NCBI GenBank assembly: GCA_003224135.1
Contig: QHYO01000020.1
Coordinates: 1,684-13,951 of the forward strand
Direction of reading: 5' to 3'
DNA from: Acidobacteriota bacterium
Lineage (GTDB): Bacteria > Acidobacteriota > Terriglobia > Acidiferrales > UBA7541
Length of the DNA: 12,268 nucleotides
Positions within the stretch are counted from its first letter, which is position 1. Every line of letters begins with the position of its first letter. A program made the translations under genes and the position numbers. The notes under the pieces were generated by a model. The model saw only the letters and a list, made by a program, of their open reading frames with translations. It ran no database searches and was not told the DNA's origin. Below, one piece after another: positions 3,994 through 6,070 of this stretch.

Positions 3994-4410
3994 ATGCAAA
4001 TCGGAATCGTAGCCAAAAAAGTTGGACTCAGCGTGGACGCGATTCGTTTCTATGAGCGGAACGCGCTATTGCCGCGACCTGCCCGGACGCAGGGAGGCTT
4101 TCGCCAGTACGGCGAACGTGATGTCGAAACGCTGGCCTTTATCCGTCGCGTACAAGGTTTGGGATTCAAACTAAGCGAAATCCGGAGCCTTTTGAATTTG
4201 CGTGGAAGCCGCATGCAGCCCTGCGCGCCGGTGCGCCGCCGCTTGCAGGCGAAGTTGGCGGATGTTCGGGAGAAGCTGGCAAATTTGCAAAAACTGGAGT
4301 TCGAACTGCGTTCGGCTCTGCGCAGCTGCGACAAGGAACTTCGCAAGCAAGGCGCGCACTGTCCGATCCTGAGGGACAGAGATTTGCAGGGGGAGAAAAC
4401 TCGTCAATGA
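3994..4410 (+). CDS. MerR-family heavy-metal-responsive transcriptional regulator
   Basis: A 138-residue regulator, the usual length for MerR/ZntR/CadR-type proteins. The N-terminal winged helix-turn-helix is clear: IGIVAKKVGLSVDAIRFYER, PARTQGGFRQYGERDVETL and FIRRVQGLGFKLSEIRSLL. A long dimerisation helix spans about residues 78-112. Three cysteines, C77, C112 and C123, match the positions of metal ligands in MerR. The 35-residue C77-C112 gap is the same as in MerR and ZntR, while the 11-residue last gap is closer to ZntR than to MerR. Residues 122-124 (HCP) may supply a His ligand. The start is ATG at 3994 with GGGAG 10 nt upstream. It is the first gene of the operon and would repress and activate the promoter at 3941-3972. 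The MerT-like gene downstream makes mercury the likeliest inducer, but Zn, Cd or Pb cannot be excluded. Confidence 0.9.
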   Translation: MQIGIVAKKVGLSVDAIRFYERNALLPRPARTQGGFRQYGERDVETLAFIRRVQGLGFKLSEIRSLLNLRGSRMQPCAPVRRRLQAKLADVREKLANLQKLEFELRSALRSCDKELRKQGAHCPILRDRDLQGEKTRQ

Positions 4411-4730
4411 AAATCGAGATCCTGTACGTCGCGGAGTGCCCGTCGCATCCTGCCGCGGTGAAACTGGTGAGAGACGTTTTAAGCTCGGAAGGGCTTTCCG
4501 CAGACGTGCGTGAAGTGCTGATCACAGATGAAACTGTCGGGGCCGCCCTTGGGTTCCGGGGTTCGCCTACGATCCGAATCGACGGGCGGGACGTGGCGGG
4601 AGAGCCAGCAACGAAGGAAAGTTTCGGGCTTAGCTGCCGACTTTATCCGGGATCACCTGAAATCGGCCTTCCCCTGGCGGACCTGGTGCGTCGCGCGGTG
4701 GTTGCCGCCCGAAAAGAGAGCCGACCATGA
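4407..4730 (+). CDS. Thioredoxin-fold small protein of a mercury-type operon (SaoT/DF-like)
   Basis: A 107-residue cytoplasmic protein that starts inside the merR stop (ATGA overlap), so translational coupling is likely. It has a thioredoxin-like outline: a first strand EILYVAECPSHPAA with C11 where the active-site loop would be, a helix, then FRGSPTIRIDGRDV with the cis-proline type S-P-T turn, and GLSCRLYPGS with C77. C11 is followed by P-S-H, so it is not a CxxC motif. C11 and C77 may cooperate. From memory, NCBI protein-family names for similar proteins include a 'DF family (seleno)protein' and a thioredoxin-like '(seleno)protein SaoT' seen near mercury genes. I cannot confirm membership. 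A role as a thiol carrier or reductant that takes metal from the adjacent MerT-like transporter is inferred from position only. Confidence 0.75.
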   Translation: MKIEILYVAECPSHPAAVKLVRDVLSSEGLSADVREVLITDETVGAALGFRGSPTIRIDGRDVAGEPATKESFGLSCRLYPGSPEIGLPLADLVRRAVVAARKESRP

Positions 4731-5068
4731 AGCAGGCGACAGGCATCTCGGCATCGTTCGGCGCGGTCTTGAGTTCCGTCGCGACCATCAGTTGTTGTTT
4801 GCCGCTCGGTTTCGCCGCGGCTCTGGGAGCTGGCGCGGCGAGCGCGTTCTTCACGACGCTGCGTCCCTGGCTATTGGGACTTTCGGTTGCGTTGATCGGA
4901 CTGGGATTTTGGCAACAGCATCGCGCGAAGCAATGCTCAGTCCCGGGCCGAAGGTTTGGCATGGTGTTGCTCTGGGCCGCGGTGGCAGTTGTCCTGGGAA
5001 TGATTCTGTTTCCACAGGAGATCGCAGCGTTCATCGCCGACCGGCTCGACGGAGCGTGGAAACTATGA
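4727..5068 (+). CDS. MerT-like mercuric ion transport membrane protein
   Basis: A 113-residue integral membrane protein, about the length of MerT (116). There are three predicted membrane helices: about residues 11-38 (containing C23-C24), 45-62 and 78-95. The adjacent cysteine pair inside helix 1, in the context SSVATISCCLPLGFAAALG, corresponds to the mercury-binding CC of MerT (TCCLGPL type). MerT has a second cysteine pair in the loop before helix 3, but here only one cysteine is seen (C70), so metal transfer may differ. The ATG at 4727 overlaps the stop of the preceding gene (ATGA), and its own stop overlaps the next start in the same way. No merP or merA is in the window. The thioredoxin-like neighbours may replace MerP as thiol partners. 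The family call comes from helix pattern and motif. Confidence 0.75.
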   Translation: MKQATGISASFGAVLSSVATISCCLPLGFAAALGAGAASAFFTTLRPWLLGLSVALIGLGFWQQHRAKQCSVPGRRFGMVLLWAAVAVVLGMILFPQEIAAFIADRLDGAWKL

Positions 5069-5655
5069 AGAAGCGAGCAATCGTTGTCGCGGTAGCGGCG
5101 ATTTTGGTGCTGCTGGGTCTCGTGTATTTGTGGGGCCTAGGTTCCGCGCCGCCAGGACAGGAACCAGTGCTCACTCTCTCGGAGACAAATTTCAGCGAAT
5201 TTGAAAAGGCCTTCGATGCCGAAGCTGACGTTCCCCGCTTGGTGCTGCTCCTGTCCCCCACATGACCAGGTTGTCTGCGGGGGGCTTCCGCAGCCGAGCA
5301 ACTCTTGATGCGGCATCGGGACCGAAAGATGCGTGTGCTGGTGGTCTGGGAACCGATCCTCACAACGGATTGGCGGCCGCCCGGAGGCGCCGCGCTTGGG
5401 CGAATTTCAGACGGCCGGACGCGTCAGTTTTGGGATCCGGGACACCTGGTCGCTGCGGCGTTGAATGGGATGGCGAAAGAGAAGCCGCCACAGCCGGAAC
5501 CAGCCTGTTGCATTCAGAAGGGATTCTACTGGGATGAGGCGATTCTGTACGCACCGCACGGGCGCTGGAGAGATGCACCGGAGTCCATTTTTTGGAGCGG
5601 CCCGGTTTTTCGCATCATTCCGGGTCTGGAGAAGGCTCTCTCCGAAGAGCCCTGA
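5065..5655 (+). CDS. Candidate selenoprotein: membrane-anchored thioredoxin-like protein with a UPGC motif (TGA at codon 67 read as Sec)
   Basis: ATG 5065 overlaps the MerT-like stop (ATGA). The frame codes for 196 residues if the TGA at 5263-5265 (codon 67) is read as selenocysteine. Residues 5-25 form a membrane anchor. A thioredoxin-like domain follows: VPRLVLLLSPT, then U67-P-G-C70, LRGASAAEQLL, the strand RVLVVWEPILTTDW, then RISDGRTRQFWDPGHLVA and PACCIQKGFYWDE with C148-C149. The TGA sits precisely where a thioredoxin-like protein has the attacking cysteine of CxxC, after a predicted beta strand. The frame before and after it is the same and makes one coherent protein. A bacterial SECIS-like hairpin begins a few bases after the TGA. 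Inferred role: a strongly nucleophilic selenol/thiol pair facing the periplasm that strips or reduces mercury compounds for the MerT-like partner. The alternative is a nonsense mutation; a 66-residue truncated product would lack the domain. Confidence 0.8.
5266..5303 (+). promoter_or_regulatory. Bacterial SECIS-like stem-loop directly downstream of the in-frame TGA
   Basis: A perfect 6-bp upper stem is formed by CTGCGG (5275-5280) and CCGCAG (5288-5293), closing a 7-nt loop GGGGCTT. A lower stem pairs GTTG (5270-5273) with CAAC (5299-5302), plus a G-T wobble (5269/5303), with an asymmetric internal loop (1 nt and 5 nt). The loop opens with guanines and begins 16 nt after the TGA. A bSECIS for SelB binding is expected to lie immediately 3' of the UGA, with a short apical loop starting about 16-37 nt away and a G among its first two bases. 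All of these are met. The element is inside the coding sequence, as usual in bacteria. Confidence 0.75.
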
Positions 5656-5680: not shown

Positions 5681-6070
5681 TTGGAGACCTCGAATAAGGT
5701 CGTGAGCAAAAGAGCCTGCTGCAGTTCACCGGCAGCGATGTGCTATTGGTTCGCAGCGTCGCTGATTGCGTGGGGAGTTCTGAGCGTCGTTGGCGCGTAC
5801 TGGCATCCTCTGCATTGGTATTCTGCCTCCACTACTCTTTTTGCCATGGCGATGGGTTGCGTTGCCAATTGGCTCAGGAACCGCTCGTTTCATTGCGCGA
5901 TCACCGGCCCGCTGTTTCTCATCGCCGGGATCTTTTTTCTGTTTGCTGACTTGCGCATCGCTCGCGTAAATGGGCCTTTGGTGTGGTCGCTGCTCCTCAT
6001 CGGAACGGCCGTGGCATTTCTCCTGGAATGGCGGTATGCGAAGCGCTCCTCCTCGACGGAAAACGCCTAA
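5681..6070 (+). CDS. Small four-helix membrane protein at the end of the metal operon, unknown function
   Basis: About 129 residues, beginning 25 nt after the selenoprotein stop on the same strand, so probably the last gene of the operon. I favour the TTG at 5681 because GGGGGA sits 8 nt upstream. GTG at 5702 and ATG at 5738 are possible alternatives with poorer or no ribosome site. Four hydrophobic segments are visible: around CYWFAASLIAWGVLSVV, SASTTLFAMAMGCVANWL, ITGPLFLIAGIFFLFADL and WSLLLIGTAVAFLLEW. The short N-terminus carries a Cys-Cys pair (KRACCSSP), and there are further Cys near helices 1-3. I do not recognise the family. Location and vicinal cysteines make a metal-transport or accessory role plausible but unproven. 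Confidence 0.6.
   Translation: METSNKVVSKRACCSSPAAMCYWFAASLIAWGVLSVVGAYWHPLHWYSASTTLFAMAMGCVANWLRNRSFHCAITGPLFLIAGIFFLFADLRIARVNGPLVWSLLLIGTAVAFLLEWRYAKRSSSTENA

Follow-up and report, generated by a model that had tools for sequence, protein, structure and literature searches.

Organization of the locus

The window analyzed here, a stretch of 12,268 nucleotides of acidobacterial DNA, contains an operon whose genes follow the order merR, DF family, merT-like and a candidate selenoprotein gene, all on the forward strand. The first of these (3994..4410) encodes a MerR-family regulator that scores over the cut-offs of PF09278, PF13411 and PF00376; against the mercury-specific model TIGR02051 its best score is 111 bits (cut-off 150.85). 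Its cysteines lie at positions 77, 112 and 123, an arrangement that we take to resemble that of metal sensors with a cysteine triad. The merT-like gene (4727..5068) encodes a small membrane protein whose residues 23-24 are a Cys-Cys pair and which a prior reading of the DNA without database searches (the sequence-only reading) had called MerT-like. That name stands in part: a profile of the merT-like proteins of the window's clade finds proteins over the Pfam MerT cut-off, but the window protein itself falls far below the MerT cut-offs (for NF033556, 22.5 bits against 180). Between the two lies a member of the DF family (4407..4730; NF049942, 86.3 bits, cut-off 70), whose first selenoprotein report, in PMC12013277, concerned Desulfosediminicola flagellatus. 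The window copy has a conserved Cys-Pro (ECPSH), and no in-frame TGA occurs in it or in 10 aligned relatives. A further small membrane protein is encoded downstream of the candidate selenoprotein gene (5681..6070, forward strand), and in L024/L076 and L032 its relative sits within the operon, before the merT-like gene. Upstream of the operon, a CusB/HlyD-type efflux adaptor is encoded on the opposite strand (3-1169, reverse).

The end of the merT-like gene is joined by an ATGA overlap to the start of the fourth gene (5065..5655, forward strand). GGAG at 5051..5054, 10 bases from the ATG, is by inspection its likely ribosome binding site. The frame from 5065 to 5655 has one internal stop, TGA at 5263-5265, which is codon 67 of the translation (...RLVLLLSPT*PGCLRGAS...), and a second TGA at 5653-5655 forms its 3′ end. 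With the internal TGA read as selenocysteine (Sec), the product would have 196 residues, a predicted N-terminal membrane helix and thioredoxin fold, and a U-P-G-C motif with Sec at 67 and, as its second redox residue, Cys70 (TGT, 5272..5274). Mechanical ORF finding split the gene at this TGA, as the sequence-only reading had expected of a gene finder: one ORF ends at 5265 and fragments follow, including the in-frame 5305-5655. The point at which gene finders cut the selenoprotein would thus be its active site.

Codon 67 across the family

Homologs were collected in two rounds. The first covered 41 genomes (the window's own and 40 relatives) and gave matches at 13 places in 12 genomes, two of which (L026 in G016:C35 and L028 in G017:C329) comprise only the C-terminal part of the protein, lack the Sec half and are perhaps decayed copies; these were left out. 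When the single protein was searched against species genomes, four relatives were obtained, all with Acidobacteria or Bryobacterales in their titles. The resulting close set of 15 site-covering genes includes the window and these four named loci, and codon 67 is TGA in all 15. In the second round, a profile of the close genes was run against 396 genomes of the phylum and matched 55 places in 49 genomes; one was the window again and three weak matches (G406, G143:C352 and G100) were left out, so that 51 were read. Codon 67 was TGA in 22 and a Cys codon in 7 of the first 29 of these, and TGA in 18 and a Cys codon in 4 of the other 22, among which L122, L127 and L133 were read by eye and then classed by script. 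The single-protein query found no match at E 0.001 in plasmid records, and the 41 pattern matches in viral contigs included no relative.

Over the whole family of 66 members, codon 67 is thus TGA in 55, a Cys codon in 11 and nothing else, the motif taking the form UxxC in 53, UxxU in 2 and CxxC in 11. The earlier claim at this site, that TGA replaces the first cysteine of a CxxC-type motif, is borne out by these counts; homologs with an unrelated residue, which had been named as grounds for refutation, were not found, all 11 non-TGA members having a Cys codon. The comparison suggests that Sec is the usual state of the family and Cys a rarer, scattered one. With the site masked, a quick tree implies at least eight changes between Sec and Cys, gain and loss not being separable; four of the Cys rows, all from one family, are near copies, and so are some Sec rows. 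In two relatives from genus g57 (L127:3001-3414, reverse strand, and L133) codon 70 is TGA as well, giving an apparent double-Sec site, SPT-U-PK-U, with two in-frame TGAs in each gene.

The reading frame had also been described as coherent on both sides of the TGA, and in the 15 close genes, window included, homologous protein is indeed encoded on both sides. Together with the restriction of codon 67 to TGA (55 of 66) or Cys codons (11 of 66), this shows that the TGA does not stand there by chance. A true stop, marking a decayed or truncated pseudogene, or a sequencing error would agree with the usual meaning of TGA, which also ends this gene, and the C-terminal remnants in two genomes are of the kind that a pseudogene would leave; neither accounts for the same-codon TGA in most members with only Cys codons otherwise, for the coding sequence that continues past it or for the covarying hairpin described below. 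On these comparisons we regard the reading as stop, pseudogene or error as nearly refuted and assign it a very small probability.

A conserved hairpin behind the UGA

Immediately downstream of the motif, the segment CUGCGGGGGGCUUCCGCAG (5275..5293, forward strand) can fold into a bacterial SECIS-like hairpin with its apical loop at 5282-5286, 16 bases from the UGA. When the regions 3′ of the UGA in the 15 close genes were aligned without gaps, a single stem of five to six pairs was found in all, with 97.8% of the 90 cells paired and three of the six pairs changed on both sides; none of 500 shuffles was as high on either measure, and slid versions of the stem paired in at most 64.4%. The pattern extends to the wider family, in which 90.5% of cells over 8 pairs are paired in 37 Sec rows, compared with 37.5% in 7 Cys rows. 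The Sec rows show both-side changes in six pairs and 34 cells; out of 500 shuffles, the number as high as observed was 0 for the percentage, 0 for the cells, 4 for the pairs and 1 for the pair types, and slid stems paired in at most 58.1%. Codon choice follows the same line: Arg72, Gly73 and Ser75, which lie in the hairpin, are encoded by CGG, GGG and TCC only in 15 of 15 close genes, while codon variation in the other 13 invariant columns compared (Met, Trp and the Sec codon excluded) is 0.84-2.26 bits.

We also applied the published bSECIS rule (loop of 3-9, stem of at least 4, a G among the first two bases of the loop, spacing of 16-37, -7.5 kcal/mol; PMC13188914), coded with no upper bound on the stem and using several window lengths. 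As coded, it is satisfied by the window's hairpin and by 30 of 37 Sec rows and 1 of 7 Cys rows in the smaller set, compared with 210 of 1407 other positions in the same 37 Sec genes that served as controls. In the larger set, made up of the UxxC Sec rows and all Cys rows but one, the hairpin conforms in 40 of 53 UxxC Sec rows and 2 of 10 Cys rows; only one of nine terminal TGAs does so, and that one is the window's own. Among the 13 Sec rows that miss the strict rule, L093, L097 and L107 still fold the stem. The folding energy of the window's hairpin was no more favorable than expected for its composition (z 0.10 relative to shuffles) and was for this reason dropped as evidence, so the case for the hairpin is one of conservation and covariation, not of stability. 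An Rfam search of the window returned nothing over the gathering score.

Selenocysteine machinery

The genome that contains the window (4.5 Mb in 804 contigs, 85% complete) encodes residues 1-225 of SelB at the end of contig C489, with 248.6 bits (cut-off 242.25), and the first part of contig C305 carries a weak match to SelA, 33 residues long (422-454, 21.8 bits); no tRNA-Sec scored over the cut-off in this incomplete assembly. The proposal to look for the Sec machinery in the same genome was therefore answered in part, by a SelB N-terminus over the cut-off and a fragmentary SelA, with tRNA-Sec over the cut-off missing. Most close relatives have all three components: over the 41 close genomes, selB, selA and tRNA-Sec were over the cut-off in 36, 36 and 34, and over the 11 with a site-covering gene (own genome included) in 11, 9 and, at 58 bits or more, 9. 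The SelB search also returned matches far below the cut-off with one in-frame TAG each in G005:C211, G007:C1 and G011:C177.

Across the phylum sample, selA was over the cut-off in 249 of 396 genomes, namely in 33 of 37 genomes with the Sec form (36 others and the window's own) and in 216 of the 359 others, Cys-form genomes included (Fisher p 0.0003). No SelA over the cut-off was found in the Sec-form genomes G143, G179 and G304. Since 9 of 10 Cys-form genomes have selA too, the gene discriminates weakly between the two forms.

These data bear on a further alternative, that readthrough of the UGA inserts a standard amino acid such as tryptophan. The inserted residue is not readable from sequence alone, which leaves room for this alternative; yet the only other codon used at the site is that for Cys (11 of 11 non-TGA members), 40 of 53 Sec rows have a hairpin that fits the bSECIS rule, and 33 of the 37 Sec-form genomes in the phylum sample have selA over the cut-off. 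We consider a standard amino acid at this position as improbable as a true stop, and the reading of TGA 5263-5265 as Sec close to certain. SelB carrying Sec-tRNA would read the UGA by virtue of the hairpin directly 3′ of it. Sec/Cys exchange, hairpin covariation and a shared operon are seen by comparison, and from them we infer actual Sec incorporation.

Predicted structure and conserved residues

An AlphaFold2 model built from the 15-row alignment (pLDDT 85.9, pTM 0.80) places a helix at residues 2-23, a strand at 58-63 and a helix at 68-83, with Sec67 between the latter two, at the start of helix 1. When the model was compared with solved structures by Foldseek, three matches were obtained at E ≤0.001, each with probability 1.00 and all thioredoxin-like: two thioredoxin-like proteins and one secreted disulfide oxidoreductase, with query-based TM-scores of 0.42-0.45 and target-based ones of 0.53-0.59. 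ResA and DsbE appeared at lower ranks and glutathione peroxidases within the first 50, and no viral model matched at E 0.001. The thioredoxin-like domain that had been proposed from the letters is thus supported by both the model and its matches, the prediction being a thioredoxin fold anchored in the membrane, in which Sec67 precedes helix 1. The 196-residue product would accordingly have a single N-terminal helix as its membrane anchor, a thioredoxin-fold domain that probably lies outside the cytoplasm and an active site formed by Sec67-Pro-Gly-Cys70. The Sec reading and the thioredoxin fold taken together are highly probable, only slightly less so than the Sec reading by itself.

Two residues, Arg58 and Pro65, are invariant across the 66 rows, and Phe50 (65 of 65) and Trp95, Trp156 and Trp168 (65 of 66 each) are nearly so. 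The Trp-Asp pair at 156-157 led us to consider kinship with glutathione peroxidases, in which the pair is Trp-Asn; this candidate was set aside, since hhalign gave 2% with five glutathione peroxidases of the close genomes. Against seven proteins that we label TlpA-like from their motif, hhalign of the 66 members gave 91% in a match limited to the first 95 columns, which include the anchor.

No Pfam or NCBIfam family, and hence no named thioredoxin family, scored over the cut-off for the 25 members scanned (15 close, 10 wider). Thioredoxin_4 (PF13462) remained below it, with best E values of 0.24 and 0.084 for the close and wider members, respectively, and a search of the sequences of solved structures gave a best E of 0.06, to a glutaredoxin. 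Weak Pfam matches to DUF5693 (in 4 of the 15 close members, with E 0.002 at best), MalF_N_TM, TM_HPP and UPRTase were rejected as probably due to chance or to the membrane helix.

Genomic surroundings of family members

By Blast with the window proteins, the 15 close loci include a MerT-like gene in 13 (not L025 or L027), a DF gene in 11 and a merR gene in 11; the merR and DF genes of L020 are encoded on the opposite strand, and L024 and L032 have an extra gene between the operon genes. With clade profiles, 54 loci, the close ones included and with flanks of unequal length, have MerR in 19, MerT-like in 20 and DF in 12. Several distant loci place the family gene among unrelated genes. In neighbors of distant members picked by hand, the Pfam MerT cut-off was exceeded in L150, L116, L137, L145 and L125 (not in L128 or L130), Pfam MerC in L113 and the CopZ-type zf_CopZ in L137 and L128; every distant neighbor tested was below the cut-offs of the NCBIfam MerT and MerC models. 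Two genes behind the Cys-form member in L134, which has a merR gene upstream, lies a MerA gene (L134:4045-5478; TIGR02053, 502.6 bits, cut-off 454.45).

MerA over the cut-off was found in neither the window's own genome nor the other 11 matched genomes, with at most 30 candidates scored per genome, some genomes being incomplete and a divergent MerA below the cut-off still possible. One of the 41 close genomes, G033, has MerA over the cut-off, and it holds no copy of the selenoprotein gene.

Discussion

The selenoprotein probably carries out thiol/selenol redox or exchange chemistry, and a direct role in metal handling has a chance not far below even. A selenol-thiol site next to a metal-type regulator and a MerT-like protein suggests soft-metal handling or the repair of metal-damaged thiols, so that the pair would most likely act on soft metal ions or on thiols that these have damaged. 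The selenoprotein could take up Hg(II)-like ions and hand them to the MerT-like protein, or it could reduce the cysteines of that protein.

About as likely as soft-metal handling or thiol repair is a general TlpA-like reductase role, and we likewise put somewhat under an even chance on an extracytoplasmic, TlpA/ResA-like thiol-disulfide reductase of general function, or on a peroxidase, for which metal genes would be mere neighbors in part of the family. Such a function, like that of the carrier considered below, agrees with Sec at position 67. The best Foldseek matches are thioredoxin-like, ResA- and DsbE-type proteins follow, and glutathione peroxidases fall within the first 50, in keeping with such enzymes; so are the profile match to the seven TlpA-like proteins (confined to the first 95 columns, anchor included), the many distant members away from metal genes and the absence of MerA over the cut-off from close carriers. 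The merR, DF and merT-like genes kept beside close members argue the other way, as do the hand-picked distant neighbors over cut-off (five Pfam MerT, one MerC and one NCBIfam MerA), and the 2% hhalign value speaks against a peroxidase in particular.

A more specific and more tentative proposal is that the selenoprotein takes the place of MerP, as a putative Sec-based carrier that would deliver Hg(II), or an ion like it, to the MerT-like protein. In known mer operons merP is expected after merT, the very place where the selenoprotein gene overlaps the merT-like gene, and selenolates bind soft metals strongly; the three MerR cysteines (77, 112 and 123), like those of Cys-triad metal sensors, would suit this too. 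The fold of MerP is not the thioredoxin fold, which counts against the carrier, as does the lack of MerA over the cut-off in close carriers. A Sec-containing putative mercuric transport protein is listed in PMC13188914 and lends the carrier some plausibility. We give the same modest chance as for the carrier to a selenol-based metal relay or guardian with a MerT-like partner, standing in for MerP in bacteria without MerA.

If the Sec reading holds, a thioredoxin-fold selenoprotein with definite genetic partners is added to those known, the possible retention of Sec machinery in acidobacterial lineages gains one explanation, and natural Sec/Cys pairs with two UxxU variants become available for testing the benefit of selenium in metal-thiol chemistry.

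We compared the family with the parts used here of PMC13188914, PMC12013277, PMC9312934 and PMC2398784, and table entries, names and model scans set it apart from the listed families as apparently new, of a known kind. Table 1 of PMC13188914 (119 families, 2026) holds no entry that could be matched to it, the scans having covered the NCBIfam models named in the table and not its entries defined by cd or PTHR domains. By name, it is none of DF and the eight other new families in the sections of PMC12013277 (deep-Sep) consulted. In those parts of the wider literature that were covered, no such selenoprotein family is described; new candidates from groundwater genomes by Deng et al., as mentioned in PMC13188914, lie outside the comparison and may include an earlier listing of the family.

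The predicted model most resembles the TlpA/ResA/DsbE oxidoreductases, with which it shares one N-terminal helix, a thioredoxin fold and an active pair where helix 1 begins, along with a remote profile similarity across the first 95 columns. Unlike these, it belongs to a family with Sec in 55 of 66 members and with no Pfam or NCBIfam model over the cut-off among the 25 members scanned. Thioredoxins differ in that the family has a conserved Trp-Asp (156-157) directly before the strand at 158-162, probably at the place of the thioredoxin cis-proline. The DF family (NF049942) is an operon neighbor but a separate protein. With the catalogued UxxC selenoproteins (thioredoxin, SaoT, HUIPC motif, GOS_C, DsbG-like and others, as listed in Table 1 of PMC13188914) the family has in common the UxxC Sec and the bSECIS hairpin, whereas the NCBIfam models named in that table gave no hits to the 15 close (E 1) or 10 wider members (E 0.1). 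The Sec-containing putative mercuric transport protein (PF02411 type) in the same source is alike in its use of selenium in a mer-like transport setting; here, in contrast, Sec would lie in the thioredoxin-fold partner and not in the MerT-like protein. In Table 2 of the marine survey PMC2398784, Cys homologs are far commoner (3,506 Sec and 58,225 Cys), whereas in the new family Sec appears to be the dominant form (55 of 66).
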